A DNA stretch of 64,000 nucleotides from Zhongshania aliphaticivorans (GTDB taxonomy: Bacteria; Pseudomonadota; Gammaproteobacteria; Pseudomonadales; Spongiibacteraceae). Where the stretch lies: NCBI RefSeq assembly GCF_001586255.1, contig NZ_CP014544.1, forward strand, positions 661,001-725,000, in the 5' to 3' direction. The translations under genes were made by a program, and so were the position numbers. Positions 27,507-60,294 of this stretch are shown here, in pieces. Under the pieces are notes generated by a model. It had not been told where the DNA came from. It made no database searches and saw only the letters and a list, made by a program, of their open reading frames with translations. The first letter of the stretch is position 1. Every line of letters begins with the position of its first letter.

Positions 27507-27522
27507 TGGTAGCGGGGGCAGG
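27507..27522. other. Left attachment site of the 32.7-kb island
   Basis: TGGTAGCGGGGGCAGG is identical to 60218-60233, the 3' end (CCA, acceptor strand and start of the T stem) of tRNA-fMet. Direct orientation and 16-base identity mark the two island boundaries. Confidence 0.85.
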
Positions 27523-35995: not shown

Positions 35996-37675
35996 CTATC
36001 TACCCCGATCCCGTCCACGGCGCGGTCTTCTTGAGCGGCGAGGCCGCGAACTGCGATTGTTGTCATGGCTTGGAGCGTTATCGTCATCGCCACCGGTATC
36101 GCCATCCTCCTGGTCAGCACCGGAGGCCTTATCGAACTCGGCCGTCAGGTTTGGAAGGTCCTTCTTACCTTCCGCTTCTGTCCGTGCCTTTTCTTGATTA
36201 GCGCCAGCGGCCTTTTCAAACTGCGCTGCGAGATCAGGTTTATCACGAGCGCCCCCTGTGCTTTCCTCGCGGCCACCTCGCACCTGCCCGGCTGCCTCGC
36301 GGAAATGCTCACGGATATTTAGTGCTTCACTACCTTCAAACTGTTTCTGAATATCGCGGCTTTGCTCACGCTTGAACTTGGCATCTAGGGCGGAAATCTC
36401 CCGCGCCTCAACCTTTGCCAGATTTTTCAGGCGGCGCTCAATATCGTGCTCTAGTGCTTGATGAACCCTTTGCTGTAGCCGCGTTTCCCGCTTATGGGCG
36501 TTGGATAGCGCTTCAAATTCTTTCGCCTGCCCGGCATGGCGCTTCTTGTCCTGATATTCGTGAAGCTTCTTCCGGGCAAATTCGACACCGCTTACCCGGC
36601 CAAGGAAGGCGGCCAGCCCTTGCGGATTGAACCGGGCGCGCTTATCGGCAATAGCCTGTTCTTCACTGGCTATTTTCTGCTCAAGGAATTTTCCTTCCGC
36701 ATCCTGCTTCTGGATAAGGGCCGCCTTTTCCCTTGCGATACGTTCGGCCAGCTTTGGGCCTTCGGCTTCAAGCGGTTTACGGCGCTCGCGATGGGCTTGC
36801 TTGAGGTCTTCATATTTCTTGGCCCATTTCTCAAGATCGCTATGCTGTTTGAATTCCGCCCGCTGCTTCGCGGCAATATCACGGGCCTCATCCACGGTCG
36901 GTAGAAGTTCTGAGGGGTAATCGTATTTCAGGAAGGCGGCGACATCTCGCGCCCGCACCGACTTGTCATCGATCATGCGGGGGAGCGCACTGGTGTGACC
37001 ATGAAGATCAACCACCACATAGGGCCGGTCACCTTGCGCGAGGATATAGCCCATATCGGCAAGGGCATTCACAAAACCTTTGGCGCTATCGGCCCTGCGC
37101 CAGGCTTGCGTGATTTCGGTCATCCGCTCTTCTTTGGTGCGGCCTGTCTGGTTTTGCTGGTGCTGCTCGTAGAGCGAATTCTGTTTGTTCTTTTCCTTTT
37201 GATCGGGCTCGTAGCCATCCGGCAAGATCAGATCATGATCGCGGGCAAATTCCCGCGTCACCTTCATGAGCTTTTCACGGTCAAAACTGAGCTGTACGGC
37301 TTTGCCTTGCTCGGCATCAATCCGTGACCAGACCACATGGGCGTGCTCTCGTCCTTCTTTTATATGGAAGACAACAGCACGAGGCTGATTTTTTAGCCCA
37401 AGCTTTTGTTCAACCCGGTCGATATAGTCCATATATTGATCGCGGCTCATCTGGCCGTTGACCTTGGTCCAGGGATTGATCGAAAGGCTGTAGAGGTATT
37501 TCTGGCATTTGGTGAGACAATGGGCTTGCAGCTCCCACTCGGCAAACGCGCCGTGAAGGTCGTGAGCGACTGCGCCCCGGATATGGGCGATTTCCACCTG
37601 TTCGTTATCCGCTTCGTTTTGCAGGTGGGTGGCCAGATCACCGCCCCCGCCGCGCTGGGAGGCAAAGGGAATCAT
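35996..37675 (-). CDS. Relaxase / mobilisation nuclease (MobA/VirD2 family)
   Basis: A 559-residue MOBP-like relaxase. The N-terminal MIPFASQRGGGGDLATHL, QKYLYSLSINP and the HxH motif in GREHAHVVWSRID (about residue 110) mark the nicking domain. Residues ~240-500 are a long charged coiled coil (REKAALIQKQDAEGKFLEQK), and the C-terminus is a low-complexity RSSRPRR tail, perhaps a transfer signal. The protein should nick oriT and lead the strand through a partner's secretion channel. Its start overlaps mobC by four bases. Confidence 0.88.
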   Translation of the reverse strand: MIPFASQRGGGGDLATHLQNEADNEQVEIAHIRGAVAHDLHGAFAEWELQAHCLTKCQKYLYSLSINPWTKVNGQMSRDQYMDYIDRVEQKLGLKNQPRAVVFHIKEGREHAHVVWSRIDAEQGKAVQLSFDREKLMKVTREFARDHDLILPDGYEPDQKEKNKQNSLYEQHQQNQTGRTKEERMTEITQAWRRADSAKGFVNALADMGYILAQGDRPYVVVDLHGHTSALPRMIDDKSVRARDVAAFLKYDYPSELLPTVDEARDIAAKQRAEFKQHSDLEKWAKKYEDLKQAHRERRKPLEAEGPKLAERIAREKAALIQKQDAEGKFLEQKIASEEQAIADKRARFNPQGLAAFLGRVSGVEFARKKLHEYQDKKRHAGQAKEFEALSNAHKRETRLQQRVHQALEHDIERRLKNLAKVEAREISALDAKFKREQSRDIQKQFEGSEALNIREHFREAAGQVRGGREESTGGARDKPDLAAQFEKAAGANQEKARTEAEGKKDLPNLTAEFDKASGADQEDGDTGGDDDNAPSHDNNRSSRPRRSRRPRRGRDRGR

Positions 37676-38022
37676 GACTGCCTGCCCATGGCTTTAAAGC
37701 AGGCATTGCGGATAGCAATCAGCTCGAAGAGCGCTTCTTCCAGCTTTAAAGCGACATTTGCATCGCCTCCGGCAAGGAGCGTTATCTCGTGCAAATCGTC
37801 ATGAAGGCGGGCCGTCTGAGCCAAAAGATGACCGATAACCTGCTTTTCGATGACAGGCTTTCTGGCGGCGCGTGCAGGTTCCTTACCGAAAATTGCCTGT
37901 GTGATAAAGGCATTTTTCGAGAGCCCTGACCGCTCGACCCGCAACCAAAATTCGGCTTCCAGCTCTACAGGCGGGCGGTAGGATATCGGTCCTTTGCGCT
38001 TTTGGTCATTTTGCTTTTCCAT
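37672..38022 (-). CDS. mobC: Plasmid mobilisation relaxosome protein MobC
   Basis: A 116-residue protein starting at ATG 38022, with GGGAGG just upstream; a longer frame to 38082 would run into the candidate oriT. The N-terminal RPPVELEAEFWLRVERSGLSKNAFITQAIFG is a ribbon-helix-helix domain of the MobC type, followed by a helical tail. MobC binds oriT and helps the relaxase open the nic region. Four-base overlap with the relaxase gene shows coupling. Confidence 0.82.
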   Translation of the reverse strand: MEKQNDQKRKGPISYRPPVELEAEFWLRVERSGLSKNAFITQAIFGKEPARAARKPVIEKQVIGHLLAQTARLHDDLHEITLLAGGDANVALKLEEALFELIAIRNACFKAMGRQS

Positions 38023-38056
38023 GCCTCCCAGCTTACTGAGGCTTTCATAAGCCGAG

Positions 38057-38088
38057 CCTCGCGGCGTCCTCGCGGCATCCAATCCTGC
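38057..38088 (+). other. Candidate oriT: tandem repeat and nic-like ATCCTGC
   Basis: CCTCGCGGCGT and CCTCGCGGCAT (38057-38067, 38068-38078) are a tandem 11-base repeat. ATCCTG at 38082-38087 followed by C matches the nic consensus of MOBP/IncP-type origins (cut after ATCCTG). It lies 35-65 bases upstream of mobC, the usual place for oriT. The nick itself is inferred. Confidence 0.6.
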
Positions 38089-38108
38089 GCAAGGGTTGGT
38101 CCAGGGTT

Positions 38109-38410
38109 TTCAGGGGAGGCGAATTCCCCTGAATGCAGGTCAAGGCGGCACACGCCTTGTGGAGGGTTCCAAGGGGCGCACACTGCCCTTTGGTCGATGG
38201 GGCTGTAGGGGAGAGCGAAGTCTCCCCTGCTCGTGATGAAACGGCGAAACGTTTACCTCAGCCGGAGAGGTTCGATACCGGTCTGGCTGACACAATCCCT
38301 TGGTGCGTCGATTCCAAAAGGATCGACAAGCTTAGGGATTCCGAGGGGGTGTCAACGGGGGATGGGAAGTCCCCCTCCAAGGTGGGCGTGGTATTACCAC
38401 GCACACCTTG
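38109..38410. ncRNA. Array of consecutive hairpins, candidate structured RNA or oriT structure
   Basis: No gene occupies these 300 bases, but nearly all bases fall in inverted repeats. H1 TTCAGGGGA/TCCCCTGAA (38109-38133); H2 CAAGGCG/CGCCTTG (38141-38159); H3 CCAAGGGGC/GCCCTTTGG (38169-38193); H4 AGGGGAGA/TCTCCCCT (38207-38228); H5 TCAGCC/GGCTGA (38258-38290); H6 AATCCCT/AGGGATT with inner GTCGAT/ATCGAC (38294-38340), extendable by TGACAC/GTGTCA; H7 GGGGGA/TCCCCC (38357-38375); H8 a 33-bp palindrome with one mismatch (38378-38410). H1-H2 and H7-H8 look like a repeated pair. Strand and function are unknown. Confidence 0.6.
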
Positions 38411-38621
38411 TGTTCCATCTTAACGCCTTCCTCCTGCTCTCCTTCAAGTCTACGGAAGAGGTCGTTACCATAACCTTAACAAAACACCAAAAGCCGCAGT
38501 TTTTCTATGGTTTTCGGGTTTATCCGGGTCGATACGGATCGTTTCAGGTCGCCGCTTCCTTTGGGGAACCGGCAGGCCAGAACGGGCTGGTTCTGACTCT
38601 ATCAGGATGTGAAAAAACGAG

Positions 38622-38648: not shown

Positions 38649-39032
38649 TAATTGTGGGTAAGAATTTGATCTTACAAAACAGGCCGCCAATCCGACAAAT
38701 ATCACAGTCATTCAACAGGGAAAATTATCAATGAAGAAAGAAAGGAGATCAGCCCGCCAACTAAAACGAACTGATCTCCGGATGAAGAGTAAGCTCGCCT
38801 ACTACAACAAACTTACTTTTTCAGATATATAAGTATCTACGCCATCAGGCAAGAAATAATGTTGCTGTATGAAAGTCACAACGCTGTGACATAAATACAA
38901 CACGACTTAATAAAAATACCTCGACGGTTCATTATTTAATAGAAACAACGTCATCTCCGATATAGAACAAGAAGGTCAGTATGCGAATCGTTTGCTGATT
39001 TTTAACAAAAAATATTTCATATGGAGATGAAA

Positions 39033-40184
39033 ATGAAAAAACTACTTCTAGCTTCTGCTGCCATCGTTGGTATGACAGCAATCACATCACCTGCTCTTGC
39101 TGGCGATGGTATTAGCCTTGACATAGGTGGCCACCTTAAAGGTTACGTCACTTACATCGATCAAGATTCTCGTTTAAACAACGAAGAGCGCAGCTTTGAT
39201 ATTTTGCGCGAAACAGAAATCCACTTGAATGGTGAAACAACACTCGACAACGGTTTAACTGTCGGTGTTAATTTCGAAGCTGACGCTGATGGCGCTGACA
39301 GCTTTGAACTTGACGAGTCATACGCTTATTTGTCAGGATCATGGGGCCGTATAAATTTTGGTGAAGAAGACGGTGCAGCTTACCTTCTCCAAGTTGCTGC
39401 GCCTTCTGCTGACAGCAACTACGACGGCATTCGCCAATTTGTCACCCCAATTAATGTTACTCTTTCCAACTTGAATGACGGTAACAATGCAAACTTCATC
39501 ACTGTACACAGCGGCGGAGAAGGTTTTGACTATGACAACGACCTTACAAGAAATGCAGAAAAACTAACTTACTTGTCACCTGTCATGAATGGCTTTCAGT
39601 TAGGTCTTTCTTACACGCCTGATGTTGCAGACACAAATGCCGCTATTGATGCACAGTTCGCGTCAAACACAAACACTATCGGTGGTGTTAACCAAGATGA
39701 CGATGGTGGTTACGGTTCTGCTTGGGAAGGTGCTGTACGTTACGAAGGCCAGATGGATGAAATCGGTTACACAGTTGGTGCCGGTTACGCGAATGTAGAC
39801 TTGGAAAATTCCGCAGCTGGTTTTGATGACTACAAAGAGTGGAACGCAGGCGTTGATCTTGACTGGTCAGCTTTCGGTCTTGGTGTTGTTTACACAGAAA
39901 ACAACAATGGTCAAAGCGGAACACAAGATGAAAACGAAACATGGGTTGTCGGTGCTGACTATACGACTGGCCCTTACAAACTCGGTGCATCTTGGTTGAA
40001 CAACGACAGCAACGTAGATGCGGCTACTCCAGTGGAGACCAACCGTCTGACAGGTGGTATAGTATATACTTATGGTCCTGGCATGACTTTCCGTGGTTCT
40101 GTGAGCTATATCGAAGCAGAACGTGAAGGCCAGACTGATGTTGACGCAACACATCTTCTTGTTGGTACTCAAATCAACTTCTAA
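39033..40184 (+). CDS. Outer-membrane porin
   Basis: A 383-residue porin. A signal peptide (MKKLLLASAAIVGMTAITSPALA) is followed by a Gly/Tyr/Asp-rich beta-barrel of alternating strands (LKGYVTYIDQ, GLTVGVNFEADADG, AYLSGSWGRINFGEED) that ends in the outer-membrane signature VGTQINF. It resembles the trimeric general porins common in alphaproteobacteria. GGAG precedes the ATG at 39033. Codon use is AT-rich compared with the adjoining mobilisation genes. A porin is unusual cargo; it may change permeability or phage reception. A terminator follows. Confidence 0.87.
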   Translation: MKKLLLASAAIVGMTAITSPALAGDGISLDIGGHLKGYVTYIDQDSRLNNEERSFDILRETEIHLNGETTLDNGLTVGVNFEADADGADSFELDESYAYLSGSWGRINFGEEDGAAYLLQVAAPSADSNYDGIRQFVTPINVTLSNLNDGNNANFITVHSGGEGFDYDNDLTRNAEKLTYLSPVMNGFQLGLSYTPDVADTNAAIDAQFASNTNTIGGVNQDDDGGYGSAWEGAVRYEGQMDEIGYTVGAGYANVDLENSAAGFDDYKEWNAGVDLDWSAFGLGVVYTENNNGQSGTQDENETWVVGADYTTGPYKLGASWLNNDSNVDAATPVETNRLTGGIVYTYGPGMTFRGSVSYIEAEREGQTDVDATHLLVGTQINF

Positions 40185-40240: not shown

Positions 40241-40324
40241 GCGAGCGCGAGGACACCGCGAGGACCACCATTCCCGTGGCGCGTGATAATCCCTGCTATC
40301 GGAACTAGCAGGACAATATTTGAA

Positions 40325-41851
40325 ATGACAAGCAAAGACAGTGATGTTCTTCTAGGCGATATTCCGCGTGGCGTATCAACCCGCTCGCTGAAGCAGCAGA
40401 GTGCCCCGCAAGCACGCTGGCAAACCAGTAGTTCTATACAGCAAAGCGCGGTGCTGGCCTATGACCCCGAAGCCCCTTGCGGAAAAATCCTCGTGGGCGC
40501 CATAGGCAATAAGCTTGTGGGAATTGAAGACAACCGCCATATATTGACCGTGGCTGGTAGCCGCGCCGGTAAATCTGTCGCAGTGATCGGTAATATGTGC
40601 TTTTACCCCGGCAGTATTTTGGCAACTGACCCGAAAGGCGAGCTTGCGAGCCTGACGGCGGCCCGGCGGGCGGCCATTGGACAAAAAGTCTATGTGCTTG
40701 ATCCGTTCGAGCAAACAACCGGCTTCGCAGCCGAGCATCGGGCGAAATTTAATCCGATGGCTGCGCTAAGCCTGGAGAGTCCTACCATTATTGAAGATGC
40801 GGCCCTGATTGGGGACGCTATGGTTATTGCCGCAGGCAAAGACCCCCATTGGGATGAAAGTGCCCGCAATTTTATTGAGGGCGTCATTTTGCATGTAGCG
40901 ACGGCAGCACAGTATGAAGGTGAGCGAAATTTGATCAACGTGCGCAGCCTGCTCCGACGTGCTATGGATTGGCATGGCGACGATGACAACGGTGACTTCG
41001 CGCTAAAAGCGGAGATGCTGGCAAACGCTGACTGGCTTGGGCAAGGTTGCGGCTATACCGATGTCGCCGACGCTATTGAGGGCGCTGCGCTCGATTTCTT
41101 TGATAAGGGCGAGAATGAGCGCGCTAGCGTTCTTTCCACCGTTCGCCGCCATACCAAGATACTGGAATATACGGCGATGCGTCGGGTACTTTCCGGCCAT
41201 GATTTTGATCTCGCCGACCTGAAGCGGGAAGCTGGCGGCGTAACTATTTACCTTTGCCTTCCTGCCAGCCGCATGGGGCTATGCAACCGCTGGCTTCGTA
41301 TCTTTATCAACCAGCTCCTCGATGCGATGGAGCGGGAAAAAACCACCCCAGAGAATCCGGTCCTTGTCGTGCTGGATGAATTTCCGGTACTGGGCCATAT
41401 GAGCCAACTTGAAAACGCCGCTGGTCAGATTGCGTCTTTTGGCGTGAAGCTATGGGTAATCTTGCAGGACTGGGGGCAAGGAACCACCTTATATAAGGAA
41501 AGGTGGGAGAGCTTTGCCGCCAATGCCGGGATCATGCAATTTTTCGGGAACAACGATCTTGCCACTACAGAATATATTTCGAAGAGGCTTGGCAAAACTC
41601 AAATCAACGCCATTCGGGGTGGTGAGGTCGGCCAGGATCAGGCCCGCCAGGGAATGACCGGAAAATCGGAAACATTGGAGCTTCACGATCTCATGACCCC
41701 GGAAGAAGTCACGCGGTTCTTCGCTCGCTCGGATTGCAAGAAACGTCAGCTCGTGATCTGGGCAGGCTACCACCCGATGATTTTACAGCGGGTGGAGTAT
41801 TTCGATAAATATGGGCCGTTCGCGGAGCTGTTTAGAGAGCTTCTACCCTAA
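40325..41851 (+). CDS. TraG/VirD4-type coupling ATPase without membrane anchor
   Basis: A 508-residue coupling protein. Walker A is AGSRAGKSVAVIG (about residue 78), DPKGELASL and YVLDPF follow, Walker B is LVVLDEFPVLGHM, with the later WVILQDWGQ. These are the TraG/VirD4 features that link relaxosomes to a type IV channel. No N-terminal membrane helices are present, so it is a soluble form like those in mobilisable elements or it borrows a partner's anchor. The start is taken at ATG 40325; 40283 is an in-frame alternative. Confidence 0.88.
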   Translation: MTSKDSDVLLGDIPRGVSTRSLKQQSAPQARWQTSSSIQQSAVLAYDPEAPCGKILVGAIGNKLVGIEDNRHILTVAGSRAGKSVAVIGNMCFYPGSILATDPKGELASLTAARRAAIGQKVYVLDPFEQTTGFAAEHRAKFNPMAALSLESPTIIEDAALIGDAMVIAAGKDPHWDESARNFIEGVILHVATAAQYEGERNLINVRSLLRRAMDWHGDDDNGDFALKAEMLANADWLGQGCGYTDVADAIEGAALDFFDKGENERASVLSTVRRHTKILEYTAMRRVLSGHDFDLADLKREAGGVTIYLCLPASRMGLCNRWLRIFINQLLDAMEREKTTPENPVLVVLDEFPVLGHMSQLENAAGQIASFGVKLWVILQDWGQGTTLYKERWESFAANAGIMQFFGNNDLATTEYISKRLGKTQINAIRGGEVGQDQARQGMTGKSETLELHDLMTPEEVTRFFARSDCKKRQLVIWAGYHPMILQRVEYFDKYGPFAELFRELLP

Positions 41852-47376: not shown

Positions 47377-47512
47377 CCATGGAGCTATTATGCTTGCTGA
47401 TGAAAAAAAGGGACTTCGGGATTAAGCGAAAGCATTTCCAGGGAACTGGGATTAATTGCTCTTGACCTTTCCCCAAAGTTAGTACCGCAACTCCGATGAG
47501 ATTTTCCAAAAG

Positions 47513-48331
47513 TTATGCCGCCTGTTTTGCGAATGCAACAGGTGGCAGATAATTCAGAGAACTGTGTGGTCGAACGTGATTGTAGTGATGACGCCACTCA
47601 TCGATCTCGACTCTTGCTTCCTCCATTGACCGGAACCAGTAACGGTTTAAACACTCGTTCCTGAACTTTCCATTCAAGCTTTCTACAAAAGCATTCTGCG
47701 TTGGCTTTCCTGGCTGTATGAAACCAAGCTTCACTCCAGCTTCTTGGCTCCAAAAAAACATGGCCTTACTGGTAAATTCGGTGCCGTTATCGCAGACAAT
47801 CGTATTCGGTTTGCCGCGAGCCTCGATTAACTGACCAAGAAAGCGAGCGACTTGCCGACCACTAATCGACACAGAAACCAGTTGCCCAACCATCTCGCGC
47901 GAATAATCATCAACAACATTCAGCACACGAAAGCGCCGCCCATTGCTCAATTGATCCGACACAAAGTCCATCGACCAGCGTTGGTTGACACCCAAAGGGA
48001 CTTCCATGGGCTGACGAGGGCGCTGTAGCTTTTTCCGCTTCTTGGTGCGAACCTGAAGGCCTTCCTCAGTGTAAATCCGGTAAGTACGCTTCCTGTTAAC
48101 AACCAGTCCTTCAGCCTTGAGAAGCCCGTGAAGCAACAAATACCCATAAGCAGACTGATCAACAGCCAACTCCTTTAGCCTTGTTCTCAGTGCCTCATCG
48201 TTGCTTGGCCTAGCCTGATAGCGATAGGCCGTTCGGCTGATGCCCGCTAGCCGGCAGGCGGCGCGCTCACTGATACGATGCTCTGCGATCATGTGTTTGG
48301 CTACCTGCTTGCGGCCGGCGGGCTTTACCAC
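47513..48331 (-). CDS. IS3-family transposase OrfB of the outer element
   Basis: A 272-residue integrase-fold transposase. HTH_21-like N-terminus (ISERAACRLAGISRTAYRYQ), then DDE core: Asp in WSMDFVSDQL, Asp in IVCDNGTEFTSK and Glu in NAFVESLNGKFRNE. The C-terminal HHYNHVRPHSSLNYLPP is typical of IS3/IS407-like enzymes. It overlaps the end of orfA, from which it would normally be expressed by frameshift or coupling. The gene itself is intact but its orfA is split. Confidence 0.92.
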   Translation of the reverse strand: MVKPAGRKQVAKHMIAEHRISERAACRLAGISRTAYRYQARPSNDEALRTRLKELAVDQSAYGYLLLHGLLKAEGLVVNRKRTYRIYTEEGLQVRTKKRKKLQRPRQPMEVPLGVNQRWSMDFVSDQLSNGRRFRVLNVVDDYSREMVGQLVSVSISGRQVARFLGQLIEARGKPNTIVCDNGTEFTSKAMFFWSQEAGVKLGFIQPGKPTQNAFVESLNGKFRNECLNRYWFRSMEEARVEIDEWRHHYNHVRPHSSLNYLPPVAFAKQAA

Positions 48332-48465
48332 TTTTTTGACAGAACGTCCTTCATCGCTTCGACTTCAAGGAGCTTGTCGGCTAATAGTTTCTTGTGTAAT
48401 CCCCCCGGAAATCCGGAACAGTTATTAGTAGAAAATTCCACTAAACTGAAGGAAGGGAGTTTTCT

Positions 48466-48732
48466 ATGCGAACATCAAGATACAGCGACAGCCAGATACT
48501 GGCGATTTTGAAACAGAATGAGAACGGTGTTTCCGTTCCAGATCTTTGCCGGGAGCACGGCATGAGCTCAGCCCAGTTCTATAAATGGCGTGCCAAGTTC
48601 GGCGGCATGGATGCGTCCATGATGAAACGCCTGAAAGAGCTGGAGGAAGAAAACAAGCGCCTCAAGAAGATGTATGCTGAGGAGCGGCTCAAGGCTGAGA
48701 TCCGGCAGGAAGCGCTTGAGGGAAAGCTGTAA
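48466..48732 (+). CDS. IS3-family OrfA, copy 1
   Basis: An 88-residue helix-turn-helix protein ([39 protein letters not shown]) with a C-terminal leucine-zipper-like helix ([18 protein letters not shown]), as in IS3 OrfA. It is identical in translation to the copy at 50211-50477. It supplies end recognition and, by frameshift, the N-terminus of the OrfAB transposase in this family. Alone it usually acts as a regulator or inhibitor. Confidence 0.92.
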
Positions 48733-49392
48733 CGCCATCTCGACGTCGTGAGATGGCGGTCGCGGCAAGACAGCGTTACGGCATTAGCGTGCGGATGGCT
48801 TGCCATTTCCTGGATATTAGCGTCTCCAGCTATTACTACCAGCCGAAGCTGTCGACAGAAAACCAGTTGATAGCGGATTGGTTGCTTAGGTTGACGACAA
48901 CAAATAAGCGCTGGGGCTTTGGCTTGTGCTACCTGTATTTGCGCAATGTGAAAGGCTATAGCTGGAATCACAAGCGTGTGTACAGGATTTACCGAGAGCT
49001 TGAGCTGAATTTGCGGATCAAGCCCAAACGACGCATCAAACGCGATAAGCCTGATGCGCTGTCGGTGCCAACGGCGCCGAACCAGGTTTGGTCGATAGAT
49101 TTTATGAGCGACTCTCTGGCGGATGGTCGGCAGTTACGTACGTTTAACGTGCTCGATGACTATAATCGCGAAGGCTTAGGAATTGAGGTCGATTTGTCCT
49201 TGCCCAGCCTTCGAGTGATTCGGAGTCTTGAGCAGATAGCGGAATGGCGAGGTTTGCCAAACGCTATTCGCCTGGACAACGGCCCCGAATATATCGCTCA
49301 GGCGCTGATTGATTGGGCCAATAGTCGAAAAATTACGCTGATGTATATCCAGCTGTAATCCCCCCATTTGCCGATACAGCTATTCGTAGAAT

Positions 49393-50190
49393 TTAGGCTG
49401 CTTGCAGCAGTTGTCTTGGGGGTACTCCTCCTATGGCCATGTTTGGCCGCTCATTGTTGTACAGCCAGAGCCATTCCGTAGCAAGATTTTGTGCCTGTTC
49501 TACCGAGTCAAACAGATGTAAATCTAGCCACTCGTGGCGTACCGTTCGATTGAATCGTTCAATATAGGCATTCTGCGTCGGCTTACCTGGCTGGATATAC
49601 ATCAGCGTAATTTTTCGACTATTGGCCCAATCAATCAGCGCCTGAGCGATATATTCGGGGCCGTTGTCCAGGCGAATAGCGTTTGGCAAACCTCGCCATT
49701 CCGCTATCTGCTCAAGACTCCGAATCACTCGAAGGCTGGGCAAGGACAAATCGACCTCAATTCCTAAGCCTTCGCGATTATAGTCATCGAGCACGTTAAA
49801 CGTACGTAACTGCCGACCATCCGCCAGAGAGTCGCTCATAAAATCTATCGACCAAACCTGGTTCGGCGCCGTTGGCACCGACAGCGCATCAGGCTTATCG
49901 CGTTTGATGCGTCGTTTGGGCTTGATCCGCAAATTCAGCTCAAGCTCTCGGTAAATCCTGTACACACGCTTGTGATTCCAGCTATAGCCTTTCACATTGC
50001 GCAAATACAGGTAGCACAAGCCAAAGCCCCAGCGCTTATTTGTTGTCGTCAACCTAAGCAACCAATCCGCTATCAACTGGTTTTCTGTCGACAGCTTCGG
50101 CTGGTAGTAATAGCTGGAGACGCTAATATCCAGGAAATGGCAAGCCATCCGCACGCTAATGCCGTAACGCTGTCTTGCCGCGACCGCCAT
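49393..50190 (-). CDS. IS3-family transposase OrfB, copy 2 (intact)
   Basis: A 265-residue DDE transposase: Asp in [13 protein letters not shown], Asp in [12 protein letters not shown], Glu in [15 protein letters not shown], with the usual C-terminal [13 protein letters not shown]. All catalytic residues are present, so this copy should be active with its OrfA. It could also act in trans on copy 1, whose ends are the same. Confidence 0.94.
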
Positions 50191-50210
50191 CTCACGACGT
50201 CGAGATGGCG

Positions 50211-50477
50211 TTACAGCTTTCCCTCAAGCGCTTCCTGCCGGATCTCAGCCTTGAGCCGCTCCTCAGCATACATCTTCTTGAGGCGCTTGTTTTCTTCCTC
50301 CAGCTCTTTCAGGCGTTTCATCATGGACGCATCCATGCCGCCGAACTTGGCACGCCATTTATAGAACTGGGCTGAGCTCATGCCGTGCTCCCGGCAAAGA
50401 TCTGGAACGGAAACACCGTTCTCATTCTGTTTCAAAATCGCCAGTATCTGGCTGTCGCTGTATCTTGATGTTCGCAT
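50211..50477 (-). CDS. IS3-family OrfA, copy 2
   Basis: An 88-residue protein identical in translation to the copy at 48466-48732, with the same helix-turn-helix and coiled-coil helix. It precedes the intact orfB of copy 2 by 20 bases in the same direction, giving one complete transposase unit. Confidence 0.93.
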
Positions 50478-51215
50478 AGAAAACTCCCTTCCTTCAGTTT
50501 AGTGGAATTTTCTACTAATAACTGTTCCGGATTTCCGGGGGGATTACACAGCCAGGTAAGCCGACGCAGAATGCCTATATTGAACGATTCAATCGAACGG
50601 TACGCCACGAGTGGCTAGATTTACATCTGTTTGACTCGGTAGAACAGGCACAAAATCTTGCTACGGAATGGCTCTGGCTGTACAACAATGAGCGGCCAAA
50701 CATGGCCATAGGAGGAGTACCCCCAAGACAACTGCTGCAAGCAGCCTAAATTCTACGAATAGCTGTATCGGCAAATGGGGGGATTACACTTGAGCTTGTT
50801 GTTCTCGCTCTCCAACTCTCGTAACCGTTTGGCTTCGTTGACTTCCATTCCGGCAAACTTGCTGCGCCAGTTATAGAAAGTGCCCGTCGAGATACCTAGG
50901 TTACGACAGATGTCATCTACCTTGGCTCCAGCCTCATGCTCTTTGATGGCCTTGATGATTTGTTCGTCGCTGTATCGCTTCTTCATACTGAGATCTCCAT
51001 CCCGTTAGGTTAACCGGAAATCTCATCTTGGTCTTGGTTCTAAAATCGGGGGAAAGGTCACTCTAAGCGCATTTCCAAGAAAACGCGCGAATCCAAAGAT
51101 AACCTAGTCGGGAAGGAAGTCTGGCGTGATTTCAGTGGTCAGGTCAGGCTTAACAAGGATCGATCTTATGACTGCTTCAGAGCTTTCTTGACAGAACAAC
51201 CGCATTAAGGCCCAT

Positions 51216-52913
51216 TTACTCGACTGCCAGATTTGCAGCCTCAAATTGCCGGATTTCATTGGAAACGGGGCCGTAGTCATCTTCGTTTAGCACTGAGTAT
51301 TTCTTATCAAAAAGTAAAACCTTGCCTCCGAAGTCGATATTCGCATCTTCCACCAGTCCAATAATCAGTTGTCGTCCTTGAGGCCGGTTATCGCGAACGA
51401 ATTCAAGTATTCTTTGAAGGTTCTTGGGGTCTTGTTCCTGCTGGTTTGGTGCGTCTATTATGATCGGGAAGAATGTTGCATTGCCATTCTTTTCGATAGC
51501 GCTTAGCGCGGTAAAAAAGTAAGCCAATATTGCTCTTGGAAGATCACTTCCACTTTCTTCAATAGAAGCGTTTATATTTGTGAAAACATTGTCGCTCAGA
51601 GAGTGGACACCAAGCTTGCTGGTGTTTCGTCTGAGATTTTCCTCGTATTGTGAGAGTATGGCCTTTCTTCTTTCAGGGTCGTCATATTTTTTCATTTCGT
51701 CTGTTGTTGACTGGATTCGCTCATCATAATCGGTTACAACGGCGCGATATTCGCCTTCTTCATTTTCCAAATGCGTGATGAGTGCTTTCTTTCCCTCAAG
51801 ATCAATCAAGTCTTTTAATTTTACCTCTCCCTTTTTTTGCGAGAGAAGCGAGTTAATCTGTTCGCGTGTCTCCTTTGTCTGGGCGAATAGACTCTCTGTA
51901 TCGTCGATCTTTTTCTCGATATCCCTTAAATCATCCCGCAGTGATGCCAGTAAATCCGAACAGGTTTCTGTATCTTGTGCGATATCGAATCGCTCCGAGA
52001 ACGAGTTTGAGTAGTTGGCCCCACAGGTGGGGCAACCAATAGTTTCATCATTGAGTTGGGTAGAAAACTTATAGTCCTCACTGAGTTCGTCGTGAGTCCG
52101 TACTACGATTTCGATCTGTGCTTCAAGCCTGATTTTCTCGGTTTTGTATTCGGATATTTTTTGCCTGTAGCTATTCTCATTTCCTTTAAGAATTTCACAT
52201 CGATCCAGGAGCTGATTTATTTCGCAGCGAAATTGTTCGGCATCAATGTTAAAGTCTACACGAGAGACATCTTTGTAGGCCTTGTCTTTCACTGACTGAA
52301 TGGATTTTATTTGGCGGAGAGGCTCTTCTTTGTCGTTTTCAAGATTCTTCCTCTTAGCTTCGAGTTCGTACCATTTATCGGGTCTTAATCCGAAATGATA
52401 GCCGGTGACACGTTGTTTCCAGTGTGAAAATTGCGAGAGGTTTGTAAACGAACTCCAGTTTTCAACCCATCCTTTATCCTGATCGATATAGAATGGAAGC
52501 ATGAGATAGGCGGGCGGAGGAGTTATAGGAACGCCTTCTCTGTCGGAGAGCTTTAGATTGAAATCGAACAGCTTTGCCAGCTCCGGCGCAAGCTCGTTGG
52601 TAATGCTTGAGTAAGTGCCGATTTCAAGATCATCGGAATCAAACAGGGAAAATGAATTTCGGTGCCTGTATATCGAGTAGTCTTTTCCATCGAGAGAGAA
52701 TCTGATCAATATGAGGATGTCGGCATTCGTCCATTTGGGGTGTCTTTTGTGCGGATTAGCCCCAAAAGCATAGGGAATGGATTTTATTACAGAAGATTTT
52801 CCGGTGTCATTTTCACCTTGGACCACTGTTATGTCCGGATCGAACTCTATCTTCCTTGCTTTCTTTTCTCGATGCGATACGAGTAGCATGCTTTTTAACT
52901 GCAAGTTTTTCAT
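51216..52913 (-). CDS. Short SMC/Rad50-like ATPase of a Lamassu-like system
   Basis: A 565-residue SMC-type protein. Walker A is VQGENDTGKSSVIKS (residues 31-45); two coiled-coil stretches flank a zinc-hook-like CPTCG (about residue 294); Walker B is FFPIIIDAPNQQEQD near residue 480. It is shorter than most Rad50/LmuB proteins because the arms are short. It overlaps the upstream DUF4297 nuclease gene by four bases. SMC + DUF4297 is the Lamassu-Cap4 arrangement, in which SMC senses DNA structures and releases the nuclease. Activity is inferred. Confidence 0.8.
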   Translation of the reverse strand: MKNLQLKSMLLVSHREKKARKIEFDPDITVVQGENDTGKSSVIKSIPYAFGANPHKRHPKWTNADILILIRFSLDGKDYSIYRHRNSFSLFDSDDLEIGTYSSITNELAPELAKLFDFNLKLSDREGVPITPPPAYLMLPFYIDQDKGWVENWSSFTNLSQFSHWKQRVTGYHFGLRPDKWYELEAKRKNLENDKEEPLRQIKSIQSVKDKAYKDVSRVDFNIDAEQFRCEINQLLDRCEILKGNENSYRQKISEYKTEKIRLEAQIEIVVRTHDELSEDYKFSTQLNDETIGCPTCGANYSNSFSERFDIAQDTETCSDLLASLRDDLRDIEKKIDDTESLFAQTKETREQINSLLSQKKGEVKLKDLIDLEGKKALITHLENEEGEYRAVVTDYDERIQSTTDEMKKYDDPERRKAILSQYEENLRRNTSKLGVHSLSDNVFTNINASIEESGSDLPRAILAYFFTALSAIEKNGNATFFPIIIDAPNQQEQDPKNLQRILEFVRDNRPQGRQLIIGLVEDANIDFGGKVLLFDKKYSVLNEDDYGPVSNEIRQFEAANLAVE

Positions 52914-54037
52914 TTTTCTTCTTCCGTAAGTTTCGTATCAGTCTTCGATATTGGCTCATTCCTCAATGCCTCGTATAAAATTGCTGATCTAACATATTCT
53001 TCATCGTATTCGTTCTTATATTTCTTGGAAAGAGCGGGAATTATTTTTTCAGCAAGATCCCCGAATGTCTTTATGCCGTCTTCTCCGTCATGGGAAGATA
53101 TCTCGCAGATAACGTCATATGAAAATTGTGCGTGGAATTCGTTGGTGGAATCCATTTTTGCGACGATATATTCCTGCCAGCACTGCCTTATTCTTCTTAT
53201 TTGCTGAAAATGAAAATTCTCCGTGCTCAATACGTTGCTGGCATCGTTCCACAGGTCGTCGTCATTTCGGCGATTGAGTACCGTACCTATCATGCGCTCG
53301 AAGTCAGAGCGCCCTATGGCTTTGTGGCGAAGCAGTTCGGAATCGTTGCCGATTTCTCTTTCATGATTTGTTTTTCTTCTGATTTCGTCAAAAAATGTTT
53401 TGTAAACCAGAGAGATATGTACCTGGCTTTCCGGATGCAGGTTTTCGAAAAATTCTACGAGCTTTCCTTTGGCAATGGATGTGTGATCAGAAAGTCTCAG
53501 ATCGCTTTTCTGTGTCTCAATGGTGCTAAGTCCGTGCAGGTTACAATATTCCTGGCTGGAGGGCTCTACTGCCGATCTTATTTTCTCCTTTTCTTTGTCG
53601 GACAAGCAGGAAAATGATACGCGGCCTAGATCGATTGATTTATCTCCGTTTCGTAGCTTGGCAGATAGAGGTTGGTTTGAAGAAAAAATCAGACTGACTT
53701 CCGCGATATCCGAAAACCGCTTATAGTTTTCGTAGAGTTTTTCAATTATCGATGGACTTTCCTTTTTAGAGGTCGTTAGAGCTCCGACTGTCCAGTTTCC
53801 GGATTTCTTTGATTTTACCTGGTAAAAGATGACCCCTGAGGGATCACTTTGGGAATCAAAGACAACGACATCTTCATGGTGTTCGAAAACCATAAGGTAG
53901 TCATCTTGGTTCGCATGCAATTCAAGTAGTTCGCATAGCGACCAGTTCTTCTGATAATCGAATCTGTTAGAAGACATTGAGCCGCTGGTTTCTCTGACGG
54001 GCGTCTCTGCAAAGGATTTGAGGATGTCGCTGCTCAT
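52910..54037 (-). CDS. DUF4297 (Cap4-type) nuclease of a Lamassu-like system
   Basis: A 375-residue protein. The N-terminal ~200 residues are DUF4297-like: RETSGSMSSNRFDYQKNW, then DVVVFDSQSD and VIFYQVKSKKSG, giving the Asp and Gln-x-Lys of a PD-(D/E)xK nuclease. The rest is helical, perhaps contacting the SMC partner. ATG 54037 has AGGA upstream; an in-frame start at 54070 is possible. Its stop overlaps the SMC start (ATGA). No LmuC-like third gene was recognised, so the set may be a minimal or divergent form. Confidence 0.8.
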   Translation of the reverse strand: MSSDILKSFAETPVRETSGSMSSNRFDYQKNWSLCELLELHANQDDYLMVFEHHEDVVVFDSQSDPSGVIFYQVKSKKSGNWTVGALTTSKKESPSIIEKLYENYKRFSDIAEVSLIFSSNQPLSAKLRNGDKSIDLGRVSFSCLSDKEKEKIRSAVEPSSQEYCNLHGLSTIETQKSDLRLSDHTSIAKGKLVEFFENLHPESQVHISLVYKTFFDEIRRKTNHEREIGNDSELLRHKAIGRSDFERMIGTVLNRRNDDDLWNDASNVLSTENFHFQQIRRIRQCWQEYIVAKMDSTNEFHAQFSYDVICEISSHDGEDGIKTFGDLAEKIIPALSKKYKNEYDEEYVRSAILYEALRNEPISKTDTKLTEEEK

Positions 54038-54125
54038 ACTAAGGCGTCCTGCTTTTCTTATATTCCCCAATCAGGTCGATTAGCCTTCCTGATTACAAAT
54101 TTCCTGTGCGATGCACAGTCTTCGA

Positions 54126-54378
54126 TTTGCCACAAATTTGCCACAAGGAATTCCAGCGAGATTCAGAGGGTGGCGGATTCCTGCGGGTTCTGGTGTGGCG
54201 AAAAATTGTGGCAAAAATGGCCGATCCCTCCGTTTTCTTCCCATATTATGCAGCTAACCCATTGATTTTATTGTGGCGCGCCCTAGAGGATTCGAACCTC
54301 TGGCCTTTGGCTCCGGAAGCCATATAAAACACTATGATTTCTGCTGGTTGTAGCTAGTTTGCCACAATTTTGCCACAT
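54126..54378. other. Attachment region with repeated integrase arm-type sites
   Basis: TTTGCCACAA occurs at 54126-54135, 54137-54146 and 54358-54367, inverted at 54206-54215, with a one-mismatch copy at 54369-54378. They surround a tRNA-Arg 3' fragment just downstream of a tyrosine integrase gene. This layout is that of an attP/attL with arm sites. Confidence 0.75.
54274..54323 (-). pseudogene. tRNA-Arg(CCG) 3' fragment
   Basis: On the minus strand the 3' half of a tRNA is seen: anticodon loop TTCCGGA with anticodon CCG, T loop GGTTCGAATCC, acceptor strand and CCA at 54274-54276. The 5' half (D arm, 5' acceptor strand) is absent. It is the imprint of tyrosine-integrase insertion at a tRNA-Arg gene. 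Confidence 0.85.
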
Positions 54379-55559
54379 CAATTCGACGGGATCATCGAAA
54401 GCATTCCCGTTTTCTCGCTTCCGTCATCTTCTGCTTTCTCGATGAGGTGGCCATAGACATTCAATGTGGTGGTGATGTCTTCGTGCCCCATAAGCCTCTG
54501 GATGCGTTTAAGATTCATTTTTTTATCAATCAGCATCGAGGCGAAGAAGTGGCGCAAATCGTATGGTTTGTAGCGTGCCTTTAGAAGGGTGTCGCCATCC
54601 TCTTCTTTTTCGTCCATTAGCCCGGCTTCTTTGCACGCGGCATAGAATCCTCTTTTCCGCCAGTGGTCTGGCAATATCCATCGACCAGTTGAAGTTGGAA
54701 AGAGTAGGTCATATTTGTTCTCAATCGATTTGTTGTCTCTGTAATGGGAAAGCATTTCGTAAACATGTGGGCTCAGATCAATAAAACGTCGCGCTGCTTT
54801 TGTCTTCGTCACTGATATTTTGTAACCGCCGCATTCGATAGCCCGCTGCACGTCTACGCCATTTTCGTGGATACTATTTTGAGAAAGCGCCAAGTATTCT
54901 TGCGGGCGCATTCCAGTATCTGCCGCAACATAAAGTATTGGGCGATACCTCTCCCATGTCCGCGCTATATGTCGGTTTTTTGAGTTGGCAAGCCTGTCTG
55001 CCGCAGCAAGAAGTGATTGAATGTCTTTTAGTGAGGGAATGACTATCGGGTCGTCATAACGTGACGCTCCTCTGACTGCAATTCCAATAGCGGGGTTGCT
55101 TGATAGATAGCCCCTGGTGACCATCTCTTTCATTACACTTTGAAAGGAGGATAGAGCTTTTTTTGCCTGGTCTCTGCTGTAATTCGCAAGCAGCCACGAG
55201 CGAAATTCGATGATATCCGGGCCTTGTAGTTCTTGAAGCGGTTTGGGCCATTCATATGAGTTGATTATATCAGCGCGATAATCATAAACCTTTAGGGTGA
55301 AAGTGGTGACTGGATCGCGACCGTCACGACCTTCATTTTTGCATATGTCGAGCCACTTTTTTACTGCTTGCTCAATGGTCTGTATATCGGTACGGGCTGC
55401 ACTATAGGAATGTTTTGCTGCACCGCTTTCGATAAATGCACGGGCTTCTTTCATTGTATTGAACGACTTAAACGCATATCCAGATTTTGTTGCGCTTGTG
55501 GGGTATCTAACTTGGTAGGTTGTCCCTTTTTTACCAGTTCTTTTTCTTATGTCGGCCAT
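54378..55559 (-). CDS. Tyrosine recombinase / integrase, tRNA-Arg type
   Basis: A 393-residue integrase. The arm-binding N-terminus (KRTGKKGTTYQVRYPTSA), a core-binding domain and a catalytic domain with Arg in DTGMRPQEYLAL, His-x-x-Arg-His region YDLRHFFASML, His in LMGHEDITTT and Tyr in LNVYGHL are all present. It lies next to a tRNA-Arg fragment flanked by arm-type repeats, its probable attachment site. As only one side of the site remains, the element may now depend on the serine recombinase. Confidence 0.93.
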   Translation of the reverse strand: MADIRKRTGKKGTTYQVRYPTSATKSGYAFKSFNTMKEARAFIESGAAKHSYSAARTDIQTIEQAVKKWLDICKNEGRDGRDPVTTFTLKVYDYRADIINSYEWPKPLQELQGPDIIEFRSWLLANYSRDQAKKALSSFQSVMKEMVTRGYLSSNPAIGIAVRGASRYDDPIVIPSLKDIQSLLAAADRLANSKNRHIARTWERYRPILYVAADTGMRPQEYLALSQNSIHENGVDVQRAIECGGYKISVTKTKAARRFIDLSPHVYEMLSHYRDNKSIENKYDLLFPTSTGRWILPDHWRKRGFYAACKEAGLMDEKEEDGDTLLKARYKPYDLRHFFASMLIDKKMNLKRIQRLMGHEDITTTLNVYGHLIEKAEDDGSEKTGMLSMIPSN

Positions 55560-55576
55560 GATTCGTCATAGCCTTT

Positions 55577-55864
55577 CTACCGGTGTCCGTCAAACTTATT
55601 TGACAGTGAGCCTGGTTTAAAATGTGAATTTCTTTCGGCTTCAACACGGCACTGCGTATATATCGAAACCAATGTGCCGCGTTCAATTTTTAGTTTCCCT
55701 TCGATAGGGTCCACGAAGAATGGAAGTTTTCGCTTGCCGTAGGCATCCGGTTCGGCTGCGCGTTTAATTTGTCGCTCATTAAGCTCTATGCCCATAGAGG
55801 CGAGAACGTCTCTGGCTTCTGATAAGCCTATGTATTTTGGTGGCTCCATAGCCCTGCCTTTCAT
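55577..55864 (-). CDS. Possible excisionase-like protein
   Basis: A 95-residue protein 17 bases upstream of the integrase. A helix-turn-helix-like start (KYIGLSEARDVLASMGIEL, ERQIKRAAEPDAYGKRKL) resembles small Xis/MerR-type wing proteins. The start overlaps the upstream stop (ATGA at 55861-55864). Function by position; sequence evidence is modest. Confidence 0.6.
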   Translation of the reverse strand: MKGRAMEPPKYIGLSEARDVLASMGIELNERQIKRAAEPDAYGKRKLPFFVDPIEGKLKIERGTLVSIYTQCRVEAERNSHFKPGSLSNKFDGHR

Positions 55865-56142
55865 CTTTCAAAGTCGAGGCAGGTCGGTCGATAATGATTT
55901 GTATCGAATTTCGATATTCTTTCCCCGCTCGGCTTTCTGAGATCGATATGTTCACCGTATTCATTGGTGATAGGTAGTAGAAGCCGAACGCCGGTCGTAA
56001 ACTTGGCGTTATAGTCATCTCTAAGCACATGAATATCTGTAATCAGCGCCTGAAGAAGCTCGTCCATTGAGACTGTGCCAAGTCCTCTGTACTCGATAAG
56101 TATGCCCGATTGCCGCTTATTTCCTTTTTTCTTATCCATCAC
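55861..56142 (-). CDS. Hypothetical protein upstream of the integrase
   Basis: A 93-residue protein (a second ATG follows at once at 56139). GILIEYRGLGTVSMDELLQAL and VRLLLPITNEYGEHIDLRKP suggest a small alpha/beta domain. It heads a left-running unit with the xis-like gene and integrase, overlapping the former by four bases. No family recognised. The 260 bases before the next gene hold nothing clear. Confidence 0.6.
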   Translation of the reverse strand: MMDKKKGNKRQSGILIEYRGLGTVSMDELLQALITDIHVLRDDYNAKFTTGVRLLLPITNEYGEHIDLRKPSGERISKFDTNHYRPTCLDFER

Positions 56143-56404
56143 TCTATTCTAAGTTGCATATGGTTAATGAAGGTTTAACAAGGGTCAGCAATGGATAGCG
56201 CGGATTTTCGCAACAGCCCGTTTCGCACCTTTTGATCCCGAACGAACCCGCGTCGATCTGCATCAATCTTGGGTAGCAATTCCCGTTTTCCTCTTCCTCT
56301 TCCTTTTTCCCCTGCCGGTCAAATGCCTTAGCCACTGGATGATGATGTGTGGGCCGGGCGTAAAGGCCTTGGCAGTCAGGGTCTTCAGGAAAAGGAGACG
56401 AAAA

Positions 56405-56602
56405 ATGAGAAAGTCCTACACAATCTTTGAACTACAATCCTACAGCGTGGGCTCTTTGCAGGCTCTGTTTCGCGCCGAAGCGGACGGGCTGCAAGGTGCA
56501 AAATTGGATCAATCCATCGCCACGGCTAACCTTCGGGCCATCAGCGGAGTGATAGAAGCAAAGCGGAAAGCGCCCGCGCCAAAACCGCCGGGTATGCGGT
56601 AG
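56405..56602 (+). CDS. Small hypothetical protein
   Basis: A 65-residue protein from ATG 56405, preceded by AAGGAG. It is helical and charged (YTIFELQSYSVGSLQALF, ATANLRAISGVIEAKRKAP). No domain is recognised. An in-frame start at 56339 is rejected because the ribosome site favours 56405. It lies just before the AbiE control region. Confidence 0.6.
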   Translation: MRKSYTIFELQSYSVGSLQALFRAEADGLQGAKLDQSIATANLRAISGVIEAKRKAPAPKPPGMR

Positions 56603-56625
56603 ACTACCGTATCATATTGATTTAT

Positions 56626-56705
56626 CTTCATTATCCCATAAAAAGGGATATGAAGGTTAAAAAATAACATAAATATATTGAAATATCCATATAAATGATG
56701 GATAT
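56626..56705. promoter_or_regulatory. Inverted repeats controlling abiE
   Basis: ATATCCAT (56683-56690) and ATGGATAT (56698-56705) are perfect arms ending a few bases before the abiEi start; another GGATAT follows at 56708. A larger dyad, CTTCAT..ATCCC/GGGATATGAAG, lies at 56626-56655. AbiEi antitoxins are known to bind inverted repeats in their own promoters. The mRNA leader would be very short. Confidence 0.7.
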
Positions 56706-56711
56706 TTGGAT

Positions 56712-57533
56712 ATGATGAAAATAACCATAGAGCGTTACATTGATGATCAAGCAGCCTCCGGCAGGCTTTGCTTTACCAAAAGCGAAGCCGTAGACGCTAC
56801 TGGCTCTTCGCCAAAGTCATTCCTGCACAGCGCCGTAAAGCTACAGAAACGTGGGCGTCTCTTCAGCCCCCGAAGCGGCTTCTACGTCATAGTGCCATCA
56901 CAGTACCAATCATGGGGAGCGCCCCCGCCAGACTGGTATATACGCGACCTCATGGGATTTGAGGACATTCCCTACTATGTCGGGCTACTGAAAGCCGCCG
57001 AAATTCATGGCGCGCGCCATCAGGCCGTCATGGAGTTTCAGGTTATAACGAATAAGCAGCTCCCCCGCATCAAAGCTGGACGCTCTCATATCGGGTTTTA
57101 TTACCGGAAGAATATTGAAGCTGTCGAAGAAGGCCTGATTGAGCAAAAGTCTGACACTGGCTATTACAAGGTTTCCGGGCCGGAGTTGACCGCGTTTGAT
57201 CTGGTGCGCTACCCCAAAGCGACAGGCGGAATAAACCATATTGCGACGGTCTTGGTTGATCTGGGCGAAAAAATTGATCCGGCACTCTTGGGCTTTCTCT
57301 CCACGGCCTTTGAACGCAGCCAAGTACAAAGGCTGGGTTACCTGCTGGACTACATTGGCCACGATAAAGCCGCGCGTTATCTGTTAAAAACGCTAGAAAA
57401 CACAGGAAAGTTGACTCAAATCGAGCTGGTTCCACCGCCTCGGGATATGGACCCCGATTTAATTCCAGAGATTACCGAGAAAGACCGGCGCTGGCGCATG
57501 ACCATTCGTCGTCCTGTGGAGGTTGACGAATGA
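56712..57533 (+). CDS. abiEi: Type IV antitoxin AbiEi
   Basis: A 273-residue protein. The N-terminal ~80 residues are a winged helix (CFTKSEAVDATGSSPKSFLHSA, KRGRLFSPRSGFYVIVP); the rest has the AbiEi C-terminal domain (PYYVGLLKAAEIHGARHQAVM, TAFDLVRYP). It represses the operon and neutralises AbiEii. The start is placed at ATG 56712 (an ATG at 56715 and a TTG at 56706 are alternatives). It overlaps the toxin gene by four bases. Confidence 0.92.
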   Translation: MMKITIERYIDDQAASGRLCFTKSEAVDATGSSPKSFLHSAVKLQKRGRLFSPRSGFYVIVPSQYQSWGAPPPDWYIRDLMGFEDIPYYVGLLKAAEIHGARHQAVMEFQVITNKQLPRIKAGRSHIGFYYRKNIEAVEEGLIEQKSDTGYYKVSGPELTAFDLVRYPKATGGINHIATVLVDLGEKIDPALLGFLSTAFERSQVQRLGYLLDYIGHDKAARYLLKTLENTGKLTQIELVPPPRDMDPDLIPEITEKDRRWRMTIRRPVEVDE

Positions 57534-58375: not shown

Positions 58376-58435
58376 CCAACGCCTTGCGATGATGCCGCGA
58401 GGCTCGGCTTTGCAGTCATCCCGTAGTCTGGCTGC

Positions 58436-58603: not shown

Positions 58604-60294
<1,691 letters not shown>

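Follow-up and report, generated by a model that had tools for sequence, protein, structure and literature searches.

A modular hairpin array adjoining a probable origin of transfer on a mobilizable defence island, with relatives in many bacteria

A mobilizable defence island of Zhongshania aliphaticivorans carries ten hairpins in series at positions 38079-38410 of the window (the whole 64,000-nucleotide stretch analysed), and the last of these hairpins is probably the nic hairpin of an origin of transfer (oriT) itself. By computation, the array has a real structure, its paired bases covary, it folds on one strand, and it ends at a nic-like hairpin beside a mobC-position gene and the relaxase gene, in an island that has moved recently. 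We put at roughly one in two the probability that the region is an extended oriT whose array is single-stranded on the transferred strand, most likely starting the complementary strand in the manner of a single-strand initiation site or single-strand origin (ssi/sso). At the last hairpin, the cut by the relaxase would fall after CACCTTG on the + strand, and the nine hairpins before it would form a modular array on the same + strand, entering the recipient last. Such an array would work only when single-stranded, folding once displaced or delivered, and the folded form would offer a host polymerase or primase a priming site of the single-strand initiation or single-strand origin type, from which the complementary strand would run leftward through mobC, the relaxase gene and the rest of the island. 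Judged from sequence comparison, the array is a member of a widespread family; since related arrays with covarying paired bases occur in many bacteria, they are probably a conserved single-strand device for island transfer.

The island spans 32.7 kb between 16-bp tRNA-Met repeats (window 27507-60233). The left attachment repeat (27507..27522) is a copy of the tRNA-Met 3' end, and the right one (60218..60233) lies in the 3' end of the tRNA-Met gene itself (60218-60294, - strand). Window positions 27455-47462 and 51061-60339 form one stretch, 99.9% identical, in a second species of the genus, and the 80 kb compared showed no further match to that species' genome as long as 200 bases; the island moved recently. 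The window copy has about 3.6 kb extra with IS3-type pieces, the transposase pieces lying at 47463-51060, a stretch absent from the second species' copy. The cargo includes Gabija, Lamassu and AbiE genes as well as restriction-modification genes, with a type II methylase, Vsr and an MvaI/BcnI-type nuclease, and the recombinase genes encode a tyrosine integrase (54378) and a large serine recombinase (58600). The open reading frame (ORF) of the latter (58600-60294; nearest model CcrB, below cut-off) ends inside tRNA-Met and spans the attachment repeat. A first, sequence-only reading of the array had offered an integration site among its possible uses, a suggestion we abandon, as the island's attachment repeats lie elsewhere; with those repeats at tRNA-Met, an attachment site inside the array is ruled out for the window.

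The array lies between a gene in the position of mobC (- strand, start probably at 38022) and a porin gene at 39021, and all its hairpins are described on the + strand. The most 5' recognisable module, at 38079..38099 (CCAATCCT-gcgca-AGGGTTGG), is of a kind found in many relatives (GCATCCAA..GGTTGGTC). It is followed by hairpin 1 at 38109..38133 (TTCAGGGGA-ggcgaat-TCCCCTGAA), retained with changes in L025 and L076, by hairpin 2 at 38141..38159 (CAAGGCG-gcaca-CGCCTTG), and by hairpin 3 at 38169..38193 (CCAAGGGGC-gcacact-GCCCTTTGG), which has a G.T pair inside its stem. Hairpin 4 at 38205..38230 (GTAGGGGAGA-gcgaag-TCTCCCCTGC) and hairpin 5 at 38239..38254 (AAACG-gcgaaa-CGTTT, of the form CG-gcgaNa-CG) are recurrent modules. 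Two two-tier hairpins come next, one at 38258..38290 with a TCRAT loop (TCAGCC..GGT-TCGAT-ACC..GGCTGA) and one at 38294..38340 (AATCCCTT..TCGATTC-caaaa-GGATCGA..TTAGGGATT), and the series is completed by the penultimate hairpin at 38357..38375 (GGGGGA-tgggaag-TCCCCC) and the last hairpin at 38378..38410, the presumed nic-proximal inverted repeat, with the presumed nic after 38410 (CACCTTG^T).

This inventory departs in part from the sequence-only reading, which had counted eight inverted repeats from 38109 onward; nine are present there and the tenth, at 38079-38099, lies outside the stretch it described. The GAA-containing loops it had noticed in three G-rich stems are present. Its proposal that the first and last pairs of hairpins (H1-H2 and H7-H8) are a duplicated unit is not supported, as the last hairpin belongs to a type of its own, taken to be the nic hairpin and common to the relatives, and counterparts of hairpin 2 exist in 4 of the 10 relatives aligned (window counted), with other hairpins occupying its place in the rest. 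Its remarks that no reading frame and no known RNA family explain the array are both borne out. Single-base gaps run along the 10-relative alignment and no coding frame is kept. A search of Rfam (4227 families) with the window at gathering score matched tRNA-Met alone and nothing for the array, and searches at E up to 5 with L001 (which contains the window's array) and with L004-L007 gave no match.

The array folds far better than expected by chance. As RNA, the + strand of 38095-38425 has a predicted energy of -167.6 kcal/mol (z = -7.7), equalled by 0 of 100 dinucleotide shuffles; for the same region z is -5.4 on the - strand and -6.3 for the + strand as single-stranded DNA (ssDNA). The array has 53 paired bp in perfect stems (at least 5 bp, loop 3-9); the average for 567 other 333-base windows is 11.6 (sd 7.6, maximum 40), and 0 of 1000 dinucleotide shuffles of the array attain 53. 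The arrays of 115 relatives have a mean of 35.1 such paired bp versus 12.8 in 925 control windows; 58 of the 115 lie above the controls' 99th percentile, and 18 lie above the control maximum of 44. The explanation of the array as a chance cluster of inverted repeats, which the first reading had already thought improbable, is refuted by the shuffles together with the covariation found in 46 relatives, and its likelihood is negligible.

Relatives were found by a pattern built from the last hairpin, which matched at least 119 genome-contig stretches and, besides these, eight viral loci. By eye, 115 of 119 genome-contig matches were judged real, three of them repeats of known loci; L049, L083, L101 and L113 were judged to be chance, as were L012, L013, L014, L016 and L018. 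With L079, L103 and L133 set aside as repeats, along with L001, L003 (the second genome's copy of the window island) and L008 from other searches, the final set comprised 122 loci, window included. An AACGG-type block lies no more than 75 nt upstream of the last hairpin in 107 of the 112 retained genome-contig loci; it is lacking in L066, L080, L096, L104 and L114, the last of which is cut off at its own start, and L080, L096, L104 and L114 were excluded from most array counts. About three quarters of the 80 taxon names among the matches listed are ones we take to be Alphaproteobacteria by genus. The other taxa among those matches are Gamma-, Beta- and Deltaproteobacteria, Nitrospirales, Planctomycetota, Verrucomicrobiales, Bacteroidota and one cyanobacterium, with the reservation that many taxon records are metagenome-assembled or draft genomes and some may be contamination. 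A near-identical array is present in L036 (Spongiibacteraceae). Within the window's class the pattern is rare, occurring in 6 of 370 genomes, and two of its seven places there (one shared sequence) are probably chance; a covariance model matched 4 of 274. In a sample of the phylum the count was 1 of 299, the window's own. The window genome has a single copy of the pattern.

BLAST searches extended this distribution to Sinorhizobium meliloti pSymB, where the array lies upstream of a small gene and an annotated relaxase gene, and to further genomes. Searches started from the arrays, and thus independent of the nic pattern, gave 11 distinct loci (L002-L007, L009, L010 and L146-L148; near-duplicates H2, H4 and H9 left out), in which the last hairpin is intact in eight, damaged in one (L147) and absent in two (L007, L148). 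Array remnants adjoin a Fic-like gene in two genomes (L007 1250-1720 and L147 7660-9161), the nic arm being damaged in L147 and the 3' part missing in L007. BLAST of the L004 array against phages and E. coli genomes found nothing, and scans of viral contigs gave no match to the array module CCAANCCGCGCAGGGTTGGTC and a single stretch for the module GGGAGAGCGAAGTCTCCC (L145), with flanks unlike an array. The gene nearest the array follows no consistent rule of orientation: of those upstream, 70 are on the minus strand and 36 on the plus strand, and of those downstream, 54 and 52 respectively.

The last three hairpins covary strongly. Alignment A1 contains these hairpins from 46 relatives, window excluded (46 of 50 sequences selected from the 122, with L053, L086, L089 and L097 left out); 99.0% of its 1424 cells are paired, and 17 of its 31 pairs have changed on both sides. 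None of 500 shuffles attained any of five measures, and sliding the partners reduced pairing to 37-48% of cells, a comparison in which the unslid version is favoured because the structure was drawn from one of the aligned sequences. Helices 4-5, which are the last hairpin, are paired in 99.3% and 98.9% of cells, and helix 3, the equivalent of the window's penultimate hairpin, covaries as well. The two-tier hairpin at 38258..38290 appears to correspond to helices 1-2, with which it can be equated by loop and shape. A covariance model built from A1 (R1; E-values rough) matches the window at 38287-38411 (E 7e-9) and the plasmid Do28_2 (E 3e-11), neither of which entered its building; the window match begins at 38287, and so covers the hairpin that follows 38258..38290 rather than 38258..38290 itself. 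Alignment A2, of the relaxase clade (10 of 11 sequences; L087, which is short, left out), reaches further upstream, and 22 of its 66 predicted pairs have changed on both sides. The outer stem of 38294..38340 covaries there (A2 columns 427-433 with 474-480). Within hairpin 3 (A2 columns 229-237 with 247-255), 9 of 10 relatives have G.T at one internal column pair and the tenth has G-C; the outermost pair varies (G-C 5, C-G 2, A-U 2, other 1), and its immediate neighbours hardly change. A search for covariation was the check that the first reading had named, and both alignments pass it.

The last hairpin fits a MOBP-type oriT, with its nic and the repeat next to it. PMC3772185 gives the MOBP nick consensus as (C/T)ATCCTG(C/T) with an inverted repeat just 5', and PMC7755788 lists CTTG|C nicks. 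The nic-like site is CACCTTG^T in the window and CACATCTTG^C (CATCTTG^C) in most relatives, with CACACCTTG^T as the alternative; CATCTTG^C is one change from the consensus, and the inverted repeat is present directly 5' of the presumed nic, at 38378-38410. Similarity among relatives peaks at nic, fades over about 400 nt upstream and climbs again beyond 700 nt, and downstream of nic conservation is close to zero past +13. Because the nic hairpin is an inverted repeat, it is the +1 base and gene order that decide which strand is taken as nicked. The +1 base is C or T on the + strand in 117 of 117 distinct sequences and G on the - strand in most, and the relaxase gene lies on the trailing side of oriT, as is common. 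We infer that CACCTTG^T is the likely cut site and, from these two features, that the + strand is probably the one nicked and transferred.

Relaxase genes accompany the hairpin at some loci. At 10 of the 122, eight proteobacterial (window included) and two from Bacteroidota, a member of this relaxase family is encoded upstream on the - strand, 405-783 nt separating its near end from the hairpin; at eight further loci a family member lies at least 4 kb away on the + strand. The figure of 10 is a lower bound, because the gene screen, which considered the longest non-overlapping ORFs only and in which absences are weak, missed the annotated S. meliloti relaxase. In the two Bacteroidota loci the last hairpin stands beside a related relaxase gene with no array, and Do28_2, a 16-kb plasmid of Desulfosarcina typed MOBP, carries the hairpin in a long-loop version beside annotated mobC and relaxase genes and has almost no array hairpins. 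As hairpins vary freely between arrays and Do28_2 nearly lacks them, the array is not required by every relative with the hairpin. The loci noted with the last hairpin and no array are L080 and L096 (Bacteroidota genera), with a related relaxase 405-451 nt away, and L104. The first reading had placed the array next to mobC and oriT; the link to transfer is supported, and the relation is closer than adjacency, the last hairpin being probably the nic hairpin.

In the window, the MobC-position gene (37672..38082, - strand; likeliest start an in-frame ATG at 38022) has no Pfam or NCBIfam match and has homologues in the same place in six other loci. The adjacent relaxase gene (35996..37675, - strand) encodes a MobA/VirD2-like nuclease domain, its nearest NCBIfam models, Bacteroides MobB and TraI/MobA(P), both scoring below their cut-offs, and a TraG/VirD4-type coupling protein, likewise with NCBIfam matches below cut-offs, is encoded at 40283..41851 on the + strand. 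A porin gene (39021-40184) separates the transfer origin from the TraG gene; in L091, L119, L023 and L137 a TraG-type ORF begins 87-147 nt past the last hairpin. Across the 122 loci we found a TraG relative in 33, a serine recombinase in 42 and a relaxase of this family anywhere in 18, and 46 had none of these three, a count that depends on limited flanks and ORF calling and is not proof of absence. A small gene family (median 112 aa) occurs in 23 of the 122 loci, 0.4-1.9 kb downstream of the last hairpin (L073, L089, L074 and others), and in these three named loci it immediately precedes the serine recombinase.

The array is a fold of the + strand. This strand folds better than the - strand in 101 of 115 arrays, and its hairpins are imperfect in a strand-specific way, G.T lying far above A.C on the + strand in every counting tried. 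At sites flanked by three Watson-Crick pairs on each side, the 115 arrays have 386 Watson-Crick, 139 G.T, 46 A.C and 283 other combinations, and the shuffle counterpart has 103, 52, 45 and 204. In loop-anchored stems the ratio of G.T to A.C is 88:7, 34:5, 53:9, 88:13 or 52:8 according to the pairs counted, in related and therefore non-independent sequences. The 88:7 count is confined to five of the seven module types and to their inner 4 to 6 pairs (Watson-Crick 531, G.T 88, A.C 7, other 88; 14% G.T), and the other cuts, three of four of which add a sixth module type, give 7.0-9.1%, so that G.T amounts to 7-14% of Watson-Crick plus G.T pairs in array stems. In the nic hairpin it amounts to 3 of 548 paired cells in A1 (0.5%) and to 4 of 179 (2%) in the inner stem, where 50 distinct sequences have 175 Watson-Crick, 4 G.T, 6 A.C and 13 other combinations. 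From these counts it follows that the array is a + strand fold tolerant of G.T and that the nic hairpin is nearly strict. Along A1 columns 30-156 the G.T share climbs with distance from nic (last hairpin 3/548, penultimate 7/410, two-tier 25/452), a trend made uncertain by a wider parse of the penultimate hairpin, which gives 16 G.T to 202 Watson-Crick pairs (outer four pairs, 61 distinct sequences, with 5 A.C and 21 other; 25 of the 122 loci unparsed).

These G.T pairs count against our preferred explanation, as 7-14% in the array and 0.5%-2% in the nic hairpin is what would be expected of an array acting as RNA and a nic hairpin acting as DNA; they could also have come from C-to-T change in exposed ssDNA. 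The sequence-only reading had left the choice between a structured RNA and an ssDNA structure for transfer. The array may encode, on the + strand, a structured RNA of some 350 nt or more with a helping role in mobilization, an interpretation we regard as possible but rather unlikely. Besides the G.T excess, the column pair that is G.T in 9 of 10 relatives and the helices that covary in 46 relatives are in keeping with it, and there is a precedent in Salmonella Genomic Island 1 (SGI1), where, according to PMC9299015, an sRNA made beside oriT is essential to island transfer, a role comparable to the one envisaged here. A bolder version, that the array represents a new class of large, modular, covarying RNA directly 5' of the nick, built from interchangeable hairpin-linker modules and needed for island transfer or for establishment in the recipient, we hold to be doubtful. 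Signals for transcription speak against an RNA: promoter scoring, which would miss unknown promoter types, found no promoter-like site in the window region; 68 arrays showed no excess of + strand promoters upstream (mean 7.71 on +, 7.72 on -); and the window region has no terminator-like signal on the + strand, the two sites found both being on the - strand (shuffles average 1.4). The gap between the array and the likeliest mobC start is moreover about 57 nt, in which a promoter would have little space, and the array has no conserved 5' border, its similarity being anchored at nic. Because of this anchoring, the lack of promoter and + strand terminator signals and the little room left by mobC, we favour the reading of the array as ssDNA. 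Also counted against the ssDNA explanation are the free variation in the number and kind of hairpins, their near absence from Do28_2, the 46 loci with no relaxase, TraG or serine recombinase and the 3 of 11 array-BLAST loci with no intact last hairpin.

Two further explanations also start from a single strand. The fold on the transferred strand might guard or mark the trailing end, either against nucleases or as a signal for the relaxase to stop and re-join, with no part in priming. The position of the array directly 5' of nic, and a number and kind of hairpins that vary freely between arrays, as expected for a bulk structural role, agree with such a function, and yet loop, stem and linker strings recur among arrays, with GGGAGAGC, TCGATGGG and CAGGAACG among the commonest 8-mers, which suggests specific recognition; we therefore consider trailing-end protection unlikely. 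Conjugative elements pass through ssDNA, and template switching during single-strand transfer could perfect palindromes and so yield covariation with no function, leaving hairpins that differ between arrays, as they do. Such a mutational by-product would be expected to have perfect Watson-Crick arms, but strand-biased G.T pairs persist, and loops and linkers outside the stems recur as well, making this origin very improbable. A CsrA sponge (GGA in loops) was considered and rejected: among recurrent modules, GGA in the loop is the rule in the aggaac type only.

The preferred reading, an ssDNA array that starts the complementary strand, has a weak hint in its favour from DnaA-box-like sites 5' of the arrays: TTWTCCACA occurs on the + strand 4 times in 28,154 bases at -650..-400 (L041, L069, L081, L137) and 2 times in 177,189 bases further upstream. 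Measured from the end of the last hairpin, + strand TTWTCCACA sites lie 437-545 nt upstream in L010, L041, L069, L081, L102 and L137, L010 and L102 being related sequences, and at 685 nt in L129. Published precedents for the position of such a priming site differ. PMC4595007 places the sso upstream of the double-strand origin in most rolling-circle plasmids and, in ICEBs1, downstream of oriT, arguing that an upstream sso could be harmful to an integrating element, and PMC7690428 describes Frpo/ssi sites as proposed primers of transferred strands. If the reading is right, the transfer origins of a broad range of islands, many of them with no visible relaxase, can be recognised by a simple sequence signature, and mobility could be predicted in cases that relaxase-based typing overlooks. 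The array would also provide a testable case of ssDNA conversion in the recipient beyond the F and rolling-circle models, together with a clean system in which to ask whether an oriT-linked fold acts as DNA or RNA.

Among titles and the starts of abstracts in the open-access literature we found no description of the array, and those literature matches to its motif strings that were listed look unrelated. It does, however, share features with several known systems. GOLLD, ROOL and HEARO are large ornate bacterial RNAs, long multi-hairpin elements on mobile DNA, from which the array differs in having no Rfam match in the searches described above. With the sgm-sRNA of SGI1 it shares a possible structured RNA beside the oriT of a mobilizable island, but the SGI1 relaxase is tyrosine-recombinase-like, and no promoter was found for the array here. 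Like the sso of rolling-circle plasmids, sso1 of ICEBs1 and the Frpo/ssi sites, it is a strand-specific multi-hairpin region near a nick, presumed to be active only as ssDNA; the likeness is one of layout, and the array is larger and modular, with about ten hairpins in variable number, and sso1 is on the opposite side of oriT. The closest parallel to the last hairpin is the MOBP-type oriT, as in RP4, VirD2 borders and tfs4, with which it shares an inverted repeat at a (C/T)ATC(C/T)TG^(C/T)-like nick, placed upstream of the gene for a MobA/VirD2-like relaxase. It differs from these in having the nick motif within the 3' arm of the repeat, with CTTG in place of CCTG, and in the long covarying array that precedes it.
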